Positions 3,743 through 62,315 are shown, counted from the stretch's first letter. The stretch is DNA of 64,000 nt from Rhodospirillaceae bacterium (GCA_902615805.1 CACMQH010000001.1:283222-347221), one strand, 5' to 3'. The notes: a model not told the origin generated them from the sequence alone. Program-made: numbers and translations.

Positions 3743-4990
3743 ATGGGAATAAAAGCTTATAATGTTTTACTTTATCTATTCCTTCCCATTATAATATTTT
3801 TTTTTTTTTTAAGAGTACTATTAGGAAAAGAAGATAAGAATAGATTTTTAGAGAAGCTTTGCTTTATTACAAAAGCAAGACCTGTAGGTAGGTTAGTGTG
3901 GATACATGCCTGTAGTGTTGGAGAAGTTAGATCTTCTTATAATATTATAAAAAGTTTTATAAAAGATGGTTACAAAGTACTTGTGACTACTAACACTTAT
4001 TTATCGTCATTAGATGTAAAAAATAAATTTTCTGATAATGTTGTGCACCAATATCTTCCCCTAGATATAAAATTTTTCATTAAAAAATTTTTAAAATACT
4101 GGAGACCAACAAAATTAATCTTAGTTGAGTCAGAAATATGGCCTAATGTTATTTACCTTGCAAATAAATTAGAAATTCCTTTATTTTTAATTCAAGCGCG
4201 TTTTTCTGATAACAGCATTAAAAAATGGTCTATATTTGGAAACTTTTTTAAACATTTATTAGAAAAATTTTCACTAATAATCCCTCAGTCATTTTTAGAT
4301 AAAGAAAAATTGGAAAGTTATACTAATAATAAAATGCATATAGTAGCTAATCTAAAGTTTAGCTCGGATATCCTAAAGTTCTCTACCAAAGAAAAAAATA
4401 ATTTACAAAAGTCCCTTGCAAAGAGAACTATTATATCTGCTGTAAGCACACATAAAGGAGAAGAAGAAATTATCATTAAACAAATAGGAGGTTTGATATC
4501 TAAAAAGAATATTTTGCTTATAATTCAACCAAGACACCCTGATAGAAGTAATAAAATCATTTCACTGCTTAAAAAGCAAAATTTAATATTTAAACAAAGG
4601 TCTAAAAAAGAAGTTCCGAATCATACTACTAGAGTCTTTTTATTTGATACATTTGGAGAAACTGGATTATTGATGTCAATTTCAAATATAATTATACTTG
4701 GAGGAACTTTAGTATCAATAGGAGGACACAACCCGATAGAAGCCGCGCAATATGGAAAATGTATTGTTGTAGGACCATATGTTAATAAAATAGAGGAAAT
4801 AGTTAACGACTTTCTAAAGCATAGAGCAATAAAAAAAATTAAAAAAAGTGAACAATTAAATTATTTATTAGAAAAGTTAATATATGACAAAAAACAACTT
4901 AAAACGCTGAGCTTTAATGCAAAGGAACTAACAAAAAAATATTTAAATACCACATCATTTATTTATAAGAAAATTGAAAGTTTTAAATGA
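3743..4990 (+). CDS. waaA: 3-deoxy-D-manno-octulosonic acid transferase
   Basis: WIHACSVGEVRSS, ESEIWPNVI, GGHNPIEAAQYGKCIVVGP. Confidence 0.93.
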   Translation: MGIKAYNVLLYLFLPIIIFFFFLRVLLGKEDKNRFLEKLCFITKARPVGRLVWIHACSVGEVRSSYNIIKSFIKDGYKVLVTTNTYLSSLDVKNKFSDNVVHQYLPLDIKFFIKKFLKYWRPTKLILVESEIWPNVIYLANKLEIPLFLIQARFSDNSIKKWSIFGNFFKHLLEKFSLIIPQSFLDKEKLESYTNNKMHIVANLKFSSDILKFSTKEKNNLQKSLAKRTIISAVSTHKGEEEIIIKQIGGLISKKNILLIIQPRHPDRSNKIISLLKKQNLIFKQRSKKEVPNHTTRVFLFDTFGETGLLMSISNIIILGGTLVSIGGHNPIEAAQYGKCIVVGPYVNKIEEIVNDFLKHRAIKKIKKSEQLNYLLEKLIYDKKQLKTLSFNAKELTKKYLNTTSFIYKKIESFK

Positions 4991-10285: not shown

Positions 10286-10735
10286 TTATTTTCTTAAATT
10301 TTTAAAAAACTTCTTAAATAGCCCTGAAAACATTTCTTCTCCTATACCTCCATAAATATCAGGCTTAAATCCTTTAAAGTTTTCGTGAAATATTTGAATT
10401 CCATTTTTTACTCCTAAATTATTATCATCATACAAGCCAAAATAAATTGAGCTAATTAGATATTTAGATATTGCATAACTACAAAAAATACAAGGCTCAA
10501 GGGAACTATATATTTTATAACCTTTTAAGTTATTGGTTTTTAATTTTTTTACTGCCTTTTTAATTGCTATATACTCAGCATGAGCTAAAGGATCATTATT
10601 TTTTATTACTAAATTATGTGCTTTTGAAATAATTTTCTTATCATTAAAGATTACTGCTCCAACTGGCACCTCATTTTTTTTTAGAGCTTTTTCTGACTCT
10701 TGGTATGCTACTTTTATTATTTGTGATAGTTTCAA
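10286..10735 (-). CDS. tadA: tRNA adenosine(34) deaminase
   Basis: DPLAHAEYIAIK and SLEPCIFCSYA zinc motifs; apparent TTG start. Confidence 0.88.
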   Translation of the reverse strand: MKLSQIIKVAYQESEKALKKNEVPVGAVIFNDKKIISKAHNLVIKNNDPLAHAEYIAIKKAVKKLKTNNLKGYKIYSSLEPCIFCSYAISKYLISSIYFGLYDDNNLGVKNGIQIFHENFKGFKPDIYGGIGEEMFSGLFKKFFKNLRK

Positions 10736-10764
10736 AATAATTAATTTTAATATTAAGATATTTT

Positions 10765-11493
10765 ATGAAAAAAAAACCATTAATAGGACTAACATTAGAT
10801 CTAGAAAATAATAAATCATATTCAAAGTTTCCTTGGTATGCTATACGCCAGAATTATTGTAGTGCTATATCTAATATGGGCGGCATACCAATACCATTAG
10901 TTTATGATATAAATTCTATAAATACAATGGTAGAAAAATTAGATGGATTTGTTATAACTGGCGGTGCCTTTGATATTAACCCCTCTTATTTTTCTGAAAA
11001 AAAAAAATTTAAAACTGTTGTTACTAAAGAAGATAGAACTGAATATGAAATTAGATTATGTAATAAAGTATTAAAAAAAAATCTTCCGCTACTGGGAATA
11101 TGTGGTGGGCAACAACTGATGAATGTAGTTTATGGCGGAAGTTTAATACAAGATATAAATAAGGAGGTTGATACCAATATAAAACACGAACAACCTAACC
11201 CAAGAAATCAGACCAGTCATACTGTTAATATTAAAAAAAATACATTCCTTAGTACAATAATTAAAAAAAGAAAAATAAATGTAAATAGCGCTCATCATCA
11301 AGCAGTGAAAAGAGTAGGTTCTGGGTTAAATGTTAATGCTGTAGCCTCAGATGGTATAATTGAAGGTATAGAAGATAAAAGACTAAATTTTTGTGTTGGT
11401 TTGCAATGGCATCCAGAGTTTTTAATAGAGGAAAGCGATAAACAAGTCTATAAAAAATTTTTAGAGGTGGCAAAGAATAATGTTAAAAGATAG
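10765..11493 (+). CDS. Class I glutamine amidotransferase-like (peptidase C26 / gamma-Glu-GABA hydrolase family)
   Basis: GFVITGGAFDINPSYF, LLGICGGQQLMNVVYGG, GLQWHPEF. Confidence 0.85.
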   Translation: MKKKPLIGLTLDLENNKSYSKFPWYAIRQNYCSAISNMGGIPIPLVYDINSINTMVEKLDGFVITGGAFDINPSYFSEKKKFKTVVTKEDRTEYEIRLCNKVLKKNLPLLGICGGQQLMNVVYGGSLIQDINKEVDTNIKHEQPNPRNQTSHTVNIKKNTFLSTIIKKRKINVNSAHHQAVKRVGSGLNVNAVASDGIIEGIEDKRLNFCVGLQWHPEFLIEESDKQVYKKFLEVAKNNVKR

Positions 11494-54742: not shown

Positions 54743-55891
54743 ATGTCAGAATCTAATAAAAATATATATGTTCTAGATAAAGAAAAAAAAGATACAGCCG
54801 GCGCAATTAGAAAAATGGCAGCAATTTTTGCAGCTGATGTAGTAGGCTACAGCAAATTAATGGCCTCAAATGAGAAACTTACTCTTTTTAGGTTAAAAGA
54901 AACTAGAAAAGTTACTGATAAAATTATACAGGAATTGAATGGTAGAATTTTTTCTACTGCAGGAGATTCAATTATGGCTGAATTTGCTAGTCCTGTAGAT
55001 GCTATGGAAGCAGCTATTTCGATACAAAAAGAAGTATCAACAAAAGCTAAAGAAATTCAGGATAATATTACTATAGAGTTTAGAATTGGTATAAACCTAG
55101 GTGATATTATGACTCAAGATAATAATTTATATGGTGATAATGTTAATATAGCTGCAAGACTAGAAGCCATAGCTCCTGTAGGCGAAATAACAGTTTCTGA
55201 AAAAGTCTACTTAGAAGTAGAAGATAAAGTAGATATTACTTTTAAATACCAAGGTGAAAAAAAATTAAAAAATATATCTAAAAAAATAAAAGTTTATACC
55301 AGTCAAATTACCACAGATAAAAAGAAGTCTGTAAAATTTCAAAAAAAACCATACATCATCACGGCAGTCATTGCATTATTTATGGTATTAGGGGGTGTTT
55401 TTTATTTTTTAAATAATAAATCGTCTAATGATATAGAATATACTGATAATTCGAAAAGTGTTTTAGAAAGTTTCAGAACTGATCAAGAGAGTCTACCAAA
55501 CAACAATAATGTAGCTAGTAATACTGTTTTTGTTGCATTAATGGAATTTCAAAATCAATCTAAAATTTTAACAGGTCAAGAAATTGAAAATATCTCTAAA
55601 TTATTTAGCGAACAATTATTCGAAGAAGAAAAAATTTCGATAGTTAAAACACCTCAAGGATCAGAAAACTTAAACCCCCCTGAAGTAATGTTGATTGCTA
55701 CAGAGTCTAATGCTTCATTCGTAGTTAACGGCATAATTTCCGATGAAAATAACTCTAGCTTTTTAAACCTTAAAATCTATGAGGCGAAAAGAGGTTCTTT
55801 AATAATTAACCAGAAAATATCTATTACTGAAAATAATGGTAATCTTATTGATTTCACTTCAAACTTTAAGAAAGATATACTAAAAAAATAA
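54743..55891 (+). CDS. Membrane class III adenylate/guanylate cyclase with C-terminal extracytoplasmic domain
   Basis: AAIFAADVVGYSKLM, FSTAGDSIMAEFASPVDAMEAA, FRIGINLGDIM, YGDNVNIAARLEAIA; TM TAVIALFMVLGGVFYFL; TolB/FlgT-like C-terminus. Confidence 0.88.
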   Translation: MSESNKNIYVLDKEKKDTAGAIRKMAAIFAADVVGYSKLMASNEKLTLFRLKETRKVTDKIIQELNGRIFSTAGDSIMAEFASPVDAMEAAISIQKEVSTKAKEIQDNITIEFRIGINLGDIMTQDNNLYGDNVNIAARLEAIAPVGEITVSEKVYLEVEDKVDITFKYQGEKKLKNISKKIKVYTSQITTDKKKSVKFQKKPYIITAVIALFMVLGGVFYFLNNKSSNDIEYTDNSKSVLESFRTDQESLPNNNNVASNTVFVALMEFQNQSKILTGQEIENISKLFSEQLFEEEKISIVKTPQGSENLNPPEVMLIATESNASFVVNGIISDENNSSFLNLKIYEAKRGSLIINQKISITENNGNLIDFTSNFKKDILKK

Positions 55892-55909: not shown

Positions 55910-56350
55910 TTAATTCTCTATTTTGCACTTTGCCCTAAACCAAGCATATTGTTTTTTATAATTTACTCCATAAGGACATTCATAACCTATAAAATTTTTA
56001 TATTTTCCTGTACCATTTATAATAGTCATTTTTCCTATTCCTCCACCTTTATCTGATTTTCTAATTCTAGAATTCCAAAATTTTTCATTATTTTGGTTAA
56101 CAGTTTCACAAAAAATTTCTAATTCTACTTTTTTGTTTTGTTGTTTAAGATAACCAGAACATTTTTCATTTCCATAATCCCCATTACTATCATCCCACAT
56201 CCCTTCAGATGTATAAGCAGAAAATTTAAAGTCGTCAGATATCTCTATAGTGCTAAGTTCACTAACACCATATCCTTCAAAAATATAATCTTTAGCATTT
56301 ACATTATTCATTAAAAATAAACTCATTAATATTATTGAAATGTATTTCAT
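55910..56350 (-). CDS. Small secreted 4-Cys protein, paralog P1
   Basis: Start at MKYISIILMSLFL after GGAGGA; GMWDDSNGDYGNEKCSGY...FCE...GGGIGK...GTGKYKNFIGYECPYGVNY...KC. Confidence 0.8.
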   Translation of the reverse strand: MKYISIILMSLFLMNNVNAKDYIFEGYGVSELSTIEISDDFKFSAYTSEGMWDDSNGDYGNEKCSGYLKQQNKKVELEIFCETVNQNNEKFWNSRIRKSDKGGGIGKMTIINGTGKYKNFIGYECPYGVNYKKQYAWFRAKCKIEN

Positions 56351-56494
56351 ATATCCTCCATTAATATCAAGAGTATAGCTCATCTTAATATCTAGCAAAA
56401 GTGTATAGAAATATGTAACTTTGGTTGGTCTATTTTTTTATTTCTTAATTTTTATAATAATTTATAGAAAGGAAAGAAAAATGTTAAAAACTTT

Positions 56495-56537
56495 AGACTA
56501 GGTAAATTTATATTATAATATTTTACCTAGTCTTTTT
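56495..56537. terminator. Intrinsic-terminator-like hairpin, possibly bidirectional
   Basis: AGACTAGGTAAA (56495-56506) / TTTACCTAGTCT (56522-56533), perfect 12-bp stem followed by TTTT. Confidence 0.7.
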
Positions 56538-56675
56538 ATTTGTAAAAATATAAAAAATATTTACCAATGAAACTAAGAACCAAAGCATAGCTGATAGCCA
56601 TAACATTAAACTTTGTGGTATACCGTTTCCTACAAAATATCCTACACATAAGTATATAAGAAGTATATTCAACAC
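56523..56675 (-). CDS. Possible 50-aa membrane protein (GTG start; not in ORF track)
   Basis: VLNILLIYLCVGYFVGNGIPQSLMLWLSAMLWFLVSLVNIFYIFTNKKTR*, two hydrophobic segments; stop lies in the hairpin stem. Confidence 0.4.
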   Translation of the reverse strand: MLNILLIYLCVGYFVGNGIPQSLMLWLSAMLWFLVSLVNIFYIFTNKKTR

Positions 56676-56707
56676 TATTGCTAATATTTTTTATTTTGGT
56701 TTATAAC

Positions 56708-57145
56708 TTATTTGCATTTTAATTCTACTAAAAAATTAACCTCATGAAAAAAAGATACTGCGTATTTACAATCTTTCTCTAAGAGAAATTTATATTTATC
56801 AGAAGCCTTCAAAAATTGCTGTTTCCCTAAACCAGATTCTAAATTTGAGGAAACTCTTTGTACTTTTGACCAAAACTTATTTTCATTACTGTCAGTAAGT
56901 TCACAAAAATTATTAAGGGTAATATTATCATTATCATTTAAAATACTACCATAACAAAAACCTGTTCCATAATTAGCAAGAGAGTCTATCCAAGTAAAAC
57001 TATTTTCTACTATAGTGAATTTTTCATTATTAATTATCATACTTTTAAAGTTATTCTTTCCTATGCTTTTCATAGAGTACTCTTCAGCTATAACATTCTC
57101 ATAAGATAGAAGTAATACTAAAATTATAAGTATAAGTTTTTTCAT
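56708..57145 (-). CDS. Small secreted 4-Cys protein, paralog P2
   Basis: Signal peptide; FTWIDSLANYGTGFCYG...NFCEL...SGLGK...KDCKYAVSF...KCK. Confidence 0.75.
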   Translation of the reverse strand: MKKLILIILVLLLSYENVIAEEYSMKSIGKNNFKSMIINNEKFTIVENSFTWIDSLANYGTGFCYGSILNDNDNITLNNFCELTDSNENKFWSKVQRVSSNLESGLGKQQFLKASDKYKFLLEKDCKYAVSFFHEVNFLVELKCK

Positions 57146-57179
57146 ACCATCTTTCCTTTCTTAGTTACGTATAAATAAT

Positions 57180-57449
57180 ATGCAGTATTTAATTAAGTAT
57201 AAACTATTCTTCCATACCTTTAATAAAGAAATAGAAGATACTATCAAAGTAAACAATGGCTTGTCTTACTTTAATGGAGAAAAAAACTGTAGTGTTTATA
57301 ATGAAGCTGATGCAGTAGATTATGTTAAATCTATACATAAACTAGGAGAAATAGATAAGCTTTTTAAAGTTCCACAGGAAATATATGATAGTGAGTATGG
57401 AGAGGTAGGTGCTACTTCTTTAAAAATATTAAGATGTTGGTTAGGTTAA
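57180..57449 (+). CDS. Small protein of unknown function
   Basis: 89-aa ORF between paralogs, divergent from P2. Confidence 0.55.
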   Translation: MQYLIKYKLFFHTFNKEIEDTIKVNNGLSYFNGEKNCSVYNEADAVDYVKSIHKLGEIDKLFKVPQEIYDSEYGEVGATSLKILRCWLG

Positions 57450-57452
57450 AAT

Positions 57453-57623
57453 ATGTCTGAACTAATATTATTTGCATGTATATTTTCTATTACTTGTGGC
57501 TACATGAATATAGGTAATATCATACAAAATAAGAAACTCATAAATTATGGCTTATTGACACTTTTTATATGGTTCTCAATTTTTATCTGGGTGCCATTTG
57601 CCATAAAATTTTTGCACAGCTAA
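57453..57623 (+). CDS. 56-aa predicted membrane protein (not in ORF track)
   Basis: MSELILFACIFSITCGYMNIGNIIQNKKLINYGLLTLFIWFSIFIWVPFAIKFLHS*; starts 3 nt after previous stop. Confidence 0.55.
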   Translation: MSELILFACIFSITCGYMNIGNIIQNKKLINYGLLTLFIWFSIFIWVPFAIKFLHS

Positions 57624-57646
57624 TAAATAATAAAAAATAATATATC

Positions 57647-58081
57647 TTAAAGGAAACATTTATGTCTATAAAAGTTAGTACTGTCATCCATATATTTTAC
57701 AGCATAATTACACTTTAACCCTTTAAACCTTTTATATTTTCCCGTACCATTTAAATAAGTTGCCACACCAACGCCTGCTGATGCATCTGAGTTGGCTCTC
57801 TGCAATAAAGTCCAAAATTTATCATTATCTGAATCAAAATATTCACAATATACTTGAAAAGATACGTCATCGTTCTCTTTTTTAGATGTACCTAAACACC
57901 TGCCTTTGCCATATTCTCCAAGTGAATCTGTCCATCGAATTTCTATATTATGGCTTTTTACTAAAAGATTATCCGATATGAACATATCTTCAGAATTTAA
58001 ATTAGCTGAGCTTTCAAAAATATAATCCTCTGCTTTAAGGCATGATGAAATTAATAGGAATATTAGTATTATTGTTTTCAT
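57647..58081 (-). CDS. Small secreted 4-Cys protein, paralog P3
   Basis: Signal peptide with possible lipobox LISSC; IRWTDSLGEYGKGRCLG...YCEY...AGVGVATYLNGTGKYKRFKGLKCNYAVKY...KC. Confidence 0.8.
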   Translation of the reverse strand: MKTIILIFLLISSCLKAEDYIFESSANLNSEDMFISDNLLVKSHNIEIRWTDSLGEYGKGRCLGTSKKENDDVSFQVYCEYFDSDNDKFWTLLQRANSDASAGVGVATYLNGTGKYKRFKGLKCNYAVKYMDDSTNFYRHKCFL

Positions 58082-58111
58082 TATATTTTGTTTCCTTATT
58101 ATGTTTTTTTA

Positions 58112-58597
58112 TTAATTTATTTTTTGTAAAAGCATTAAATTTTTTTCAGGAATATTACAAATCCATTTAGTAAAAAAATTATTTTTAAAAAACTTAATTC
58201 CATAATTACATTCTACATTATCAAGAATATCTAATGGTTTTTCTCCTGCAAACAATATAGCTTTTCCAACACCTGCTTCATCAATTCCTTTTTTTCTGAC
58301 ACCTTGAGCAAAAATAACTTTATTGTTTTGATATGTTAACTTTGAACTCCATTGCAAATTTATAACTTTTCCTTCTTTATATTCAGCAACTACAGTTCCA
58401 TCACTAGAACCATAATTACCTAAATTATCTTCAAAAGTTCCTCTGATAGTATAATTTTTGAAACTATGTTTTTTTGAATAGTTGTGTTCCACTATTGTAT
58501 CAACATTACCATTTGAATCTATTGTATACCTATTTAAACTTTCTTCTGAAAAGGAATAAGTAGAAAAATGTAATAGCAAGGTGAGTAAGTATTTCAT
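58112..58597 (-). CDS. Small secreted protein, paralog P4 (first Cys pair absent)
   Basis: GTFEDNLGNYGSSDGTVV...LQWSS...AGVGKAILF...VECNYGIKF...WICN. Confidence 0.75.
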   Translation of the reverse strand: MKYLLTLLLHFSTYSFSEESLNRYTIDSNGNVDTIVEHNYSKKHSFKNYTIRGTFEDNLGNYGSSDGTVVAEYKEGKVINLQWSSKLTYQNNKVIFAQGVRKKGIDEAGVGKAILFAGEKPLDILDNVECNYGIKFFKNNFFTKWICNIPEKNLMLLQKIN

Positions 58598-58616
58598 TTA
58601 ATCTATCCCTAGTATT

Positions 58617-58928
58617 TTATTTCTCATCTTCTTTCTCTCTAATGTAATGTGCAGCAACGTTTCCTTCATGCCACTCAACTATTCCATCAAACGACTTTAT
58701 AAAGTCTATCCACATTTTTTTAAATTCCTGAGAAGTTTTGAGAAAATCTTCTTTTGATTTATAAATACCCCATCCTACTATTTTCCCTTCACCTGTTTTT
58801 ACCATAATTTGTTCCTGACTTAGGGTTTCTTTATCTAATTTATCAAACCAAACTGTTTTCATCATAGCTATAAAAGCATCTGCTTTATCATCAGAAGGGA
58901 ATTTTACTGTAGCTATTCTAATGTACAT
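58617..58928 (-). CDS. Small ABM-like (dimeric alpha/beta barrel) protein
   Basis: MYIRIATVKFPSDDKADAFIAMMK...GKIVGWGIYKSKEDFLKTSQEF; 103 aa. Confidence 0.55.
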   Translation of the reverse strand: MYIRIATVKFPSDDKADAFIAMMKTVWFDKLDKETLSQEQIMVKTGEGKIVGWGIYKSKEDFLKTSQEFKKMWIDFIKSFDGIVEWHEGNVAAHYIREKEDEK

Positions 58929-58931
58929 ATG

Positions 58932-58970
58932 AGAAATATAACTGAATTAACTAATCCTATCAATTATCTG
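58932..58970 (-). promoter_or_regulatory. Promoter-like repeat copy A (upstream of ABM-P4-P3)
   Basis: Minus strand CAGATAATTGATAGGATTAGTTAATTCAGTTATATT: TTGATA-N17-TATATT-N6-ATG. Confidence 0.6.
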
Positions 58971-59031
58971 TTCATAGAATCTGACTAGTAAAAGAGGAAG
59001 CTTATGTATAGCAACCTAAACATTGAAGATT

Positions 59032-59475
59032 TTATCTAAACTTGCACTTCTGCATAGCAAAATAGTCTGAAGATTTTAAATAGGTAACTGCATGAGAACA
59101 TTCAGCCCCTAGTATATAACTATAGTTTTTTGATGTTTCAACTATTTCAGCTCTACCTGCACCAGACTCTTGATATTCTGAGTCTCTATAAATTTTCATT
59201 ATAAAATAGTCATTGTTTTGAGATATATTTTTGCAGTAAACATTAAACCCATTCTTTCCATTTTTATCAGTAGTAACAGTTCCTAAGCATGTATGCAATC
59301 CAAAGTCTCCAGTAGAACTTTTCCAATGACCATTAGACTTATAAAGTTTGTACGAACTATTATCATTAAACGTGTACCCATTGATATCTGCTTTACCAGT
59401 ACCCTCAAAAGTTATTTCATTAGTATTTCCATAAGATGCAAATATTAATGCAAATATTAGTATTATTTTTTTCAT
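59032..59475 (-). CDS. Small secreted 4-Cys protein, paralog P5
   Basis: Signal peptide; [17 protein letters not shown]...VYCKN...SGAGRAEI...AECSHAVTY...KCKF. Confidence 0.78.
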
Positions 59476-59519: not shown

Positions 59520-59609
59520 TGGCGGAGAGAGAGGGATTCGAACCCTCGATACGATTTCTCGCATACACGCGTTCCAGGCGTGCGCCTTCGACCGCTCGGC
59601 CACCTCTCC
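59520..59609 (-). tRNA. tRNA-Ser(GGA), CCA encoded
   Basis: Minus strand GGAGAGGTGGCCGAGCGGTCGAAGGCGCACGCCTGGAACGCGTG...GGTTCGAATCCCTCTCTCTCCGCCA. Confidence 0.95.
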
Positions 59610-59651: not shown

Positions 59652-59945
59652 ATGATTGTAAAAAAAATAATTTTAATAAGTTTTTTCTTATTTGGTAATT
59701 TGCAAATTCTGTTAAGTTTTTTTTATAAAAAATTTTCTATTGGTTTTTTGTGGTACTCAATAAACTCTAATAGTCTTGTTGGCTTTCAAAGTTTACTCGA
59801 AAGATACTCTTACTATTTTGATAACTATAAAATTGATATAAATAAATACTTATTTTTTTTTTTAGATATTAATTTATTTTTTTTAATGGGGGTTTTATTT
59901 TTATTATTTCCTTGTTTTTTATCAGTTAAATTATCTAGTTCTTAA
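59652..59945 (+). CDS. Small hydrophobic protein of unknown function
   Basis: 97 aa with N- and C-terminal hydrophobic segments; 3' end overlaps pheT 3' end. Confidence 0.4.
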   Translation: MIVKKIILISFFLFGNLQILLSFFYKKFSIGFLWYSINSNSLVGFQSLLERYSYYFDNYKIDINKYLFFFLDINLFFLMGVLFLLFPCFLSVKLSSS

Positions 59946-62315
59946 TTTTGCCCCAACCTTTTTCTCTACAGTTTTTATAATATCATCCATTAACAAGCCA
60001 ATCTCTTTTGTATTTAAAACCTTATACTGTTGTACAATTTCTACTTCTATCGCCAAAGATAATTCTGATTTTTCCTCATTTTTATAAACATCAAAAACTG
60101 TTATTTCTCCTATTTTAGGATCCACTTTTTTAATTTCTTGTATTAATTTCTCAGCACTAATATTACTTTTAATTATAAAAGCGAAATCTTTTTTTAATGG
60201 CAATAGAGGTGACATATTTAATATTTTTTCTTCTTTTACTTGACTTAATACTTCACAAATATTGTCTATACTTCCTTCACATATTATGGTTGATTGTTTT
60301 ATTTTAAATTTGTTCTTAAGACTAGGGTGCAGTTCACCAAAACTTAGAATTTTCTTTTCTTTATATGTAACCTCCGCTGAAACGCCAGGATGAAACCATT
60401 CATTGGTAGTCCTTACTAGATCAAATTTTGAAATTTCTAATTCATCAAAAAGATCTAATAGTAATGATTTCATATCATAAAAATCAAAGTCTCTTTTAGG
60501 GTAATGCCAATTCTTCTTAAATGCGTTACCACTGATCAATACTGCAAAATTAGACCTCTGATCTTCTGTGCCTAGCCCTTCATAAACGAAACCTACTTCA
60601 AAAATGTTAGTGGTTTCTATCCCTCTGGAAAAATTTCTTGAAGCTATATCTAAAAGATTAGGTAATAAGGAGTTTCTCATAATACCTAATTCTCTAGAAA
60701 TAGGATTTTCTAATTTTAGACTAGAATTAAGTTCTCCTATAGGGATTATTTTATTTTCAGAGATAAAAGTAAATGTAATTACCTCAAGTAATCCAATTTT
60801 TGCAAGTGACTCTCTAATATTAATTTGGATATTTTTGCTTAAAGAAAATAATTTATTTTTCTTACTACTATCATTAATTATCTCTTTATCTGGTATATTG
60901 TCATAACCTTCAAATCTCAAAATTTCTTCTACTATATCATTACTGATACTAATGTCATGTCTCCAAGAAGGAGGGTTCAAATAAATAACATCTTTTTCTT
61001 CCTTGACTACGCTAAAATTAAGTTTATCCAAAATATCTTTTTGTCTATTTTTATTAACTGGAAAACCAATTAGCTTCTCAAAACTATTAAAGTCATATTT
61101 AATTTCTTTTATTAAATTAATAGAATTTCCAGCCTCAACATAATCACTAAATGAGCCGCCACATATGCTATTAATTAAGGCAGTGCTATACTCTAAACCT
61201 TCTATTAAACCCTTTGGATCAATCCCTCGTTCAAACCTATAACGTGCATCTGATGTAATACCAAGCCTTCTGCCAGTCTGTGCTATTCTATGCGCATTAA
61301 AATAAGCTACCTCTAAAAAAACATGTTTTGTATTTTCATCAACGCAGCTATTAAGTCCCCCCATAATACCTGCAATACTAACTGTTTTTTCATTATCTTT
61401 TATAACTATATCACCCTTGCTAAGTATATATTCTTTTTTATCTAACCCTATAAACTTCTCTTCGTTATTTAGACATATGACTTTTAAATCTCCATTAATT
61501 TTACTTGCGTCAAAAACATGTAATGGTCGGCCAATGTCATATAAGATATAATTTGTAATATCTACTAAACTTGAAATAGGTTTTAAACCGACACTCTCTA
61601 ATCTTTTTTGTAACCAACTAGGACTTGGCAAATTGTTGTTAATTTTAAAATATCTTCCATATATTAAAGGACAATCATTGATATTATTCAAAGATCCTAG
61701 GTCCCATTTAAGATTACTTTTAAAAGTACCTGGCTTACTATTAATGTTTCTTTTAATTAGGCTTAAGTTTAAACTTGCTGCTAAATCTCTAGCTATTCCT
61801 CTCACTGAAGCGCAGTCACCTCTGTTAGGAGTGAGACCTATATTAAATAAAAAATCGTTTTGAACATAGTTATTTAAGGTTTTACCAACATCATAATTAT
61901 TATCTAACTCTATAATGCCATCTATTTTTTCTGGAAAACCTAATTCTTTTTCAGAACAAAGCATTCCATCACCTTCAACTCCCCTAATACTTTTTTTCTC
62001 AAGTTTAAAATTAGTTCCTGGAATATACGTACCATTAGGTGCAAAAATTGTTTTTAGACCTTCTGTCGCATTTGAAGCACCACAAACTACTTTAAAATTT
62101 TCTTTACCATAATTAATTTCACAAACTTTCAATCGATCAGCATTAGGATGTTTTTCTGTTTTTACTATTTTACAGACTAAAAAATTTTTAAAATTTTCAT
62201 TTGTGCTATCTAGACTTTCAACTTCCAATCCTAAATTAGTTAATAGTTCTGAAATCTGTATTTCAGACTTATTTAATTTTATATGTTCATTCAACCAAGA
62301 AAGAGTAAACTTCAT
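59931..62315 (-). CDS. pheT: Phenylalanine-tRNA ligase beta subunit
   Basis: KFTLSWLNEHI, tRNA-binding domain, GIMGG, RFERGIDP. Confidence 0.97.
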   Translation of the reverse strand: MKFTLSWLNEHIKLNKSEIQISELLTNLGLEVESLDSTNENFKNFLVCKIVKTEKHPNADRLKVCEINYGKENFKVVCGASNATEGLKTIFAPNGTYIPGTNFKLEKKSIRGVEGDGMLCSEKELGFPEKIDGIIELDNNYDVGKTLNNYVQNDFLFNIGLTPNRGDCASVRGIARDLAASLNLSLIKRNINSKPGTFKSNLKWDLGSLNNINDCPLIYGRYFKINNNLPSPSWLQKRLESVGLKPISSLVDITNYILYDIGRPLHVFDASKINGDLKVICLNNEEKFIGLDKKEYILSKGDIVIKDNEKTVSIAGIMGGLNSCVDENTKHVFLEVAYFNAHRIAQTGRRLGITSDARYRFERGIDPKGLIEGLEYSTALINSICGGSFSDYVEAGNSINLIKEIKYDFNSFEKLIGFPVNKNRQKDILDKLNFSVVKEEKDVIYLNPPSWRHDISISNDIVEEILRFEGYDNIPDKEIINDSSKKNKLFSLSKNIQINIRESLAKIGLLEVITFTFISENKIIPIGELNSSLKLENPISRELGIMRNSLLPNLLDIASRNFSRGIETTNIFEVGFVYEGLGTEDQRSNFAVLISGNAFKKNWHYPKRDFDFYDMKSLLLDLFDELEISKFDLVRTTNEWFHPGVSAEVTYKEKKILSFGELHPSLKNKFKIKQSTIICEGSIDNICEVLSQVKEEKILNMSPLLPLKKDFAFIIKSNISAEKLIQEIKKVDPKIGEITVFDVYKNEEKSELSLAIEVEIVQQYKVLNTKEIGLLMDDIIKTVEKKVGAKLRTR

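Follow-up and report, generated by a model that had tools for sequence, protein, structure and literature searches.

Within the window, by which we mean the whole 64,000-nt stretch of DNA from a Rhodospirillaceae bacterium analysed here, five ORFs on the minus strand, P1 (55910..56350), P2 (56708..57145), P3 (57647..58081), P4 (58112..58597) and P5 (59032..59475), lie between a class III nucleotide cyclase gene (54743..55891, plus strand; Pfam Guanylate_cyc) and a tRNA-Ser(GGA) gene (59520..59609, minus strand), with the core gene for PheT beyond (59931..62315, minus strand). An earlier note, made from the sequence alone, had called these five ORFs as a cluster of small secreted paralogs, and all were recovered at the same positions. 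P1 encodes 146 aa; an upstream TTG is readable too, and the ATG at 56350 is the start that gives a signal peptide. The earlier note had also remarked on the neighbouring cyclase and tRNA-Ser. The tRNA-Ser is real, with anticodon GGA, and its position is meaningful because tRNA-Ser is an integration hotspot; here it forms the island boundary. The cyclase was correctly named and is merely the core gene of the other flank.

Two further ORFs are interspersed with the five. An 89-aa ORF lacking a signal peptide (57180..57449, plus strand) diverges from P2 across a 34-bp gap and is conserved island cargo, with 84–87% identity in another genus (g6); eight of its nine good copies lie ≤1 kb from a family gene, and the ninth is in a tRNA-Tyr island with an integrase. 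A 103-aa ORF (58617..58928, minus strand), antibiotic-monooxygenase-like by eye and with no Pfam match, lies upstream of P4 at a distance of 19 bp; ten copies were found across six genomes, none of them more than about 1.2 kb away from a family gene. Conserved promoter-like elements on the minus strand precede the 103-aa ORF (58930..58976) and P5 (59472..59517; TTGATA-N17-TATGAT), the latter abutting the tRNA-Ser 3′ end. This ∼45-nt element has only four matches in the source genome, before P5, the 103-aa ORF and two family genes of contig C14, and in other genomes the majority of its matches fall within family islands. Most family genes are without it, so it does not characterise the family as a whole. 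A second promoter-like class, AAATATAAGGACA-N-TATATAAT, was seen before other family genes (L149, L157 and L158; G003 C8, G010 C12 and G004 C10).

Used as a lone query against its own genome, P1 retrieved P3 (1.2e-27), P5 (2.2e-17), P2 (9.8e-17) and P4 (1.4e-6); P3 and P5 are assigned as members by ORF, homology and profile match. By sequence comparison, homology among P1–P5 is far above chance and beyond doubt. The motifs described earlier are real, with G60, R97, G104, G106, C125 and C142 almost invariant. Scans of the family against Pfam and NCBIfam returned chance-level matches only and assigned no family, in agreement, together with the homology, with the claim of a single, unnamed paralogous family. 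Since none of the 24 members in the source genome passes the Pfam cut-off for Dirigent (PF03018), AOC_like (PF18678) or DUF3237, the family is not placed in any of these. A PHROGs scan likewise yielded chance-level matches only, no phage record matched the family, and a sequence search of the PDB found nothing. The description ‘4-Cys’ fits four of P1–P5 but not P4, because the latter has the second Cys pair only.

A hydrophobic N-terminus is present in 137 of 139 full-length members, which upholds the claim of secretion. Among the same 139, C64 and C81 occur together in 108, are both missing in 27 and occur one alone in four (co-occurrence by Fisher test, without correction for relatedness), while C125 is kept together with C142 in 134; R97 is conserved in 88% and D54 in 73%. 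In the P1 model, each Cys pair (C64–C81 and C125–C142) occupies mirror positions of one hairpin, with the sums 64 + 81 = 145 and 125 + 142 = 267 matching twice the turn centres. Cys covariation and hairpin register together support two predicted cross-strand disulfides, and with them an oxidising compartment for the protein.

AlphaFold models, resting on 11 sequences, predict the same eight-stranded antiparallel barrel for P1 (pLDDT 88.1) and P4 (pLDDT 87.5), with a helix between strands 6 and 7. The idea of one family, which was to fall if the five failed to align or had different folds, survived this comparison because the P1 and P4 models have one shared fold. Foldseek matched the models to DUF3237, dirigent, PloI4, AbyU, allene oxide cyclase (AOC), RPA1785 and the pyocyanin demethylase PodA (5k21), with best E-values of 2.7e-5 (P4) and 1.9e-3 (P1), a probability of 1.0 and TM scores of ≤0.69 by query and ≤0.76 by target. 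The similarity of the predicted barrels to solved AOC/dirigent-type barrels is thus one of fold and not of family; the AOC-type fold is assigned by predicted structure only, because no sequence profile is common to this family and those. Against a viral fold library the models gave only weak matches, with TM scores under 0.5. Variability of the presumed inner residues of the barrel was not significantly different from that of the outer ones.

A profile of P1–P5 finds 24 copies in the source genome (1.18 Mb, 75% complete), on nine contigs (C1, C2, C6, C12, C13, C14, C15, C18 and C21); the 24th copy scores 40 bits and the next ORF 7 bits. The judgement that five copies are unusual for a small genome is upheld, the window holding only part of this total. 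PheS served as the marker with which genome collections were searched for relatives, and the closest named records are the single-cell genomes AG-919-A04, AG-896-G13 and AG-390-K05, labelled Rhodospirillaceae. In a survey of 60 relatives, three genera were expanded, with 5–57 copies in the source genus, 23 in g3 and 7–28 in g6; the maximum of 57 comes from a relative that is 55% complete, and 28 copies were found in a 97%-complete g6 genome. Within the same taxonomic family, which also contains genomes of 2.5–3.8 Mb, g2, g4 and several g5 genomes carry a single copy, and no copy was found in g7 or g8. The densest array, on G003 C8 (L149), packs 18 family genes into 15.6 kb in mixed orientations. 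Such G003 arrays prompted us to consider an integron-like cassette array, which we set aside on the strength of gene orientation and repeat type: orientations are mixed and the repeats found are promoter-like or coding.

Beyond these relatives the family is rare. When 385 alphaproteobacterial genomes were drawn, the source genome included, only four of the 384 others had any match, and three of these were weak, partial matches to secreted GGTGKY proteins. The fourth, in a genome of another taxonomic family (G283; L215), is a 26% GC contig carrying a family gene, the promoter element and tRNA-Tyr. Because this contig shares neighbours (a methyltransferase-like gene and the tRNA-Tyr) with a G003 island, its sequence content suggests that binning contamination is likely, transfer being the alternative.

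The earlier note had proposed comparing the locus across related genomes, and its contents there vary. The tRNA-Ser(GGA) directly adjoins the cyclase in MED606, G001, G007 and G010, which are empty sites. In the close relative AG-896-G13 (PheS 94%, cyclase 96%), the family members in the interval are counterparts of P2 and P1 only, alongside the 89-aa ORF and two more ORFs for small secreted proteins, while AG-390-K05 has a tyrosine integrase and four family genes there. In G003 the cyclase side is occupied by a dozen family genes, in a stretch that showed no tRNA-Ser(GGA). Neither an integrase nor a second tRNA repeat turned up in the window island, whose insertion is for this reason inferred from the relatives.

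Many other family islands are located at tRNA-Ser or tRNA-Tyr. The minimal case, a 2.3-kb element on G004 C10, consists of tRNA-Ser(TGA), a 334-aa integrase, one family gene and a repeat in which the 3′ part of the tRNA recurs together with about 60 nt. The gene that follows this element directly follows the single tRNA-Ser(TGA) in the source genome (C12), so that direct tRNA-end repeats and a matching empty site are both seen for this pair. A tyrosine recombinase lies beside a tRNA gene in AG-390-K05, G004, the source C14, and G001 C41 and C21; it adjoins tRNA-Ser(GCT) in the source C14 and G001 C41 and is near tRNA-Tyr in G001 C21, and an integrase is also found on the tRNA-Tyr contig of G003 (C3). 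No recognised tRNA was found near the source clusters on C6, C18, C21, C15 and C2. Taken together, the sequence comparisons make a well-supported case that the family is mobile and travels horizontally as island cargo. The five window genes are therefore only part of the story, the family being larger and more mobile than the earlier note saw.

Several island features were seen in passing. Degraded extra copies of tRNA-Ser(TGA) lie amid family genes in G001 C5 (L151:15055-15134 and L152:584-670) and were probably left behind by earlier insertions. On the source C14, a cluster of six family genes is bounded by ∼97-bp direct repeats (82–91%; L032:48-144 and 4702-4800), found nowhere else in the source genome. 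Further small secreted proteins are encoded in family islands (L036:18462-18962, L071:10356-10859, and L070:9765-10220 and 10330-10776); two of them have weak dirigent or AOC_like matches, and they are perhaps sister families.

How the cluster came to hold five members bears directly on its interpretation. The view taken earlier, that local tandem duplication was followed by diversifying selection, is suggested by five same-strand tandem copies with low mutual identity, but an AU test on a quick tree under a simple model rejects P1–P5 as a clade (p about 1e-109), and the ‘old duplication’ of a local cluster must be given up. Most of them are closer to genes of other genomes, up to 93%, than to one another: P2 is 93% identical to its AG-896-G13 copy and 90% to a G003 copy, and P4 78% to a G004 copy. 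Pairs above 55% identity are almost absent within a genome, and members from different genera reach 97% (G010/G004) and 92% (source C14/AG-390-K05), as compared with 56–58% for the flanking cyclase and 63% for PheS. On the family tree, a quick tree under a simple model, genome labels require 95 changes against 83–93 when shuffled, and are thus no more clustered than chance. Nor is there gene-wide diversifying selection, because dN/dS is 0.06–0.31 in 20 pairs (flanking core genes, about 0.08–0.11), values that are whole-gene averages by a simple counting method and that a few selected sites could escape. Local duplication followed by diversification is hardly credible on these data. At P1, dS against the positional counterpart in AG-896-G13 is 1.13, compared with 0.19–0.24 in the flanks; this difference in sequence divergence points to replacement of the gene rather than to mutation alone.

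Island residence and replacement also fit the main rival reading, that the proteins are anti-phage or anti-toxin factors, acting as periplasmic blockers, decoys or immunity proteins of defence islands. Family genes are cargo of islands at tRNA genes; the source C14 carries, besides its family cluster, tRNA-Ser(GCT) and integrase, two type II methyltransferases and an MkoA-like helicase-nuclease; the tRNA-Ser(GCT) island of G001 C41 (L184) combines an integrase with MzaB/C/D-like genes; and non-redundant repertoires with allele replacement at the P1 locus are what an arms race would leave. Nevertheless, no family gene lies in the stretch read of the G001 Mza island, and the C14 cluster is several kb away from the defence genes, so that the link is not tight. 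Neither a toxin partner nor a homologue among phage records and PHROGs came to light, the viral fold library gave nothing useful and dN/dS is low; we regard a defence role as rather unlikely. A distinctly unlikely reading is that these are secreted enzymes of one chemistry, cyclases or redox tautomerases comparable with PloI4, AbyU, AOC and PodA. The structural neighbours of the models are mostly enzymes, PodA included, R97 and D54 are conserved, and every copy of the monooxygenase-like 103-aa ORF is linked to the family; yet the conserved polar residues are few, the remaining barrel is widely variable, median identity among family members is only 25%, and there is no sequence relation to the enzyme families.

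We favour, at a probability of roughly 55%, a joint reading in which P1–P5 are traded island cargo and belong to a repertoire of secreted, disulfide-bonded ligand barrels. The five genes would be the cargo of a genomic island with tRNA-Ser(GGA) on one side and the core cyclase gene on the other. Elements with a tyrosine recombinase would carry one or few copies into tRNA genes, inserting at their 3′ ends, and comparison of genomes supports the view that copies build up in this way to a non-redundant set of variants. The mature protein would most probably work at the surface or in the periplasm, its barrel holding a small hydrophobic or aromatic molecule and either sequestering or converting it, different variants perhaps serving different ligands, for example toxins or signals of competitors or algae. 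Computation and comparison support the secretion signal, the barrel fold of the models, island residence, horizontal exchange and purifying selection. The ligand-handling role we infer from the predicted fold, the secretion signal, the variability of barrel residues and the linkage to islands, and on that footing the family probably comprises barrels that bind or neutralise ligands in the periplasm. Among small barrels of the AOC type, PodA, dirigent proteins and spirotetronate cyclases are precedents for action on aromatic or redox-active molecules. Counting against the favoured reading are the source clusters with no recognised tRNA nearby, the window island's lack of an integrase and of a second tRNA repeat, the unremarkable variability of the presumed inner residues, and the versatility of the AOC-type fold, which is found in many sorts of enzyme and scaffold.

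An unlikely extension of the favoured reading is that small-genome bacteria of the ocean pool tens to hundreds of barrel variants on integrase-plus-one-gene elements, as a mobile, cassette-like repertoire of chemical immunity; if true, the set of ligand neutralisers would be non-redundant and would differ from cell to cell. Streamlining in marine genomes is generally taken to involve the loss of paralogs. Here one unnamed secreted family accounts for some 2–5% of genes (24 of ∼1,250 and 57 of ∼1,150, totals estimated from genome size). It is exchanged across genera, gives a name to a cargo class of tRNA-targeted islands in ocean bacteria, and poses a directly testable question, namely what the barrels bind.

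The family is new by sequence, whereas its predicted fold and its vehicle are of kinds already known. Like members of the AOC/dirigent-type superfamily (AOC, PF03018, PF18678, DUF3237, DUF3224, PloI4, AbyU and PodA), it is predicted to form an eight-stranded barrel in which a short helix precedes strand 7, and it has the GTGKY-type loop; unlike them, it has a second predicted disulfide, between strands 7 and 8, and no family profile of the superfamily matches it by sequence. Bacterial dirigent-like proteins have Cys on strands 3 and 4, as does the window family, but their genes occur one each in 49 bacterial genomes (PMC9344732), as against tens of copies here. Single-copy GGTGKY secreted proteins of other alphaproteobacteria (L051-L055 and L216-L218) share secretion, the GGTGKY loop and the C-terminal Cys pair; they differ in occurring one per genome, at about 32–52 bits, with no island in the short stretches read. 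The vehicle resembles the tRNA-targeted islands and tycheposons of small-genome aquatic bacteria (PMC10872708) in its tyrosine recombinase beside a tRNA gene, its 3′-end repeats, its variable cargo and its use of the same sites across genera, a likeness drawn from tRNA-island features alone. It differs from them in that one protein family dominates the cargo, the minimal element being an integrase and one family gene.
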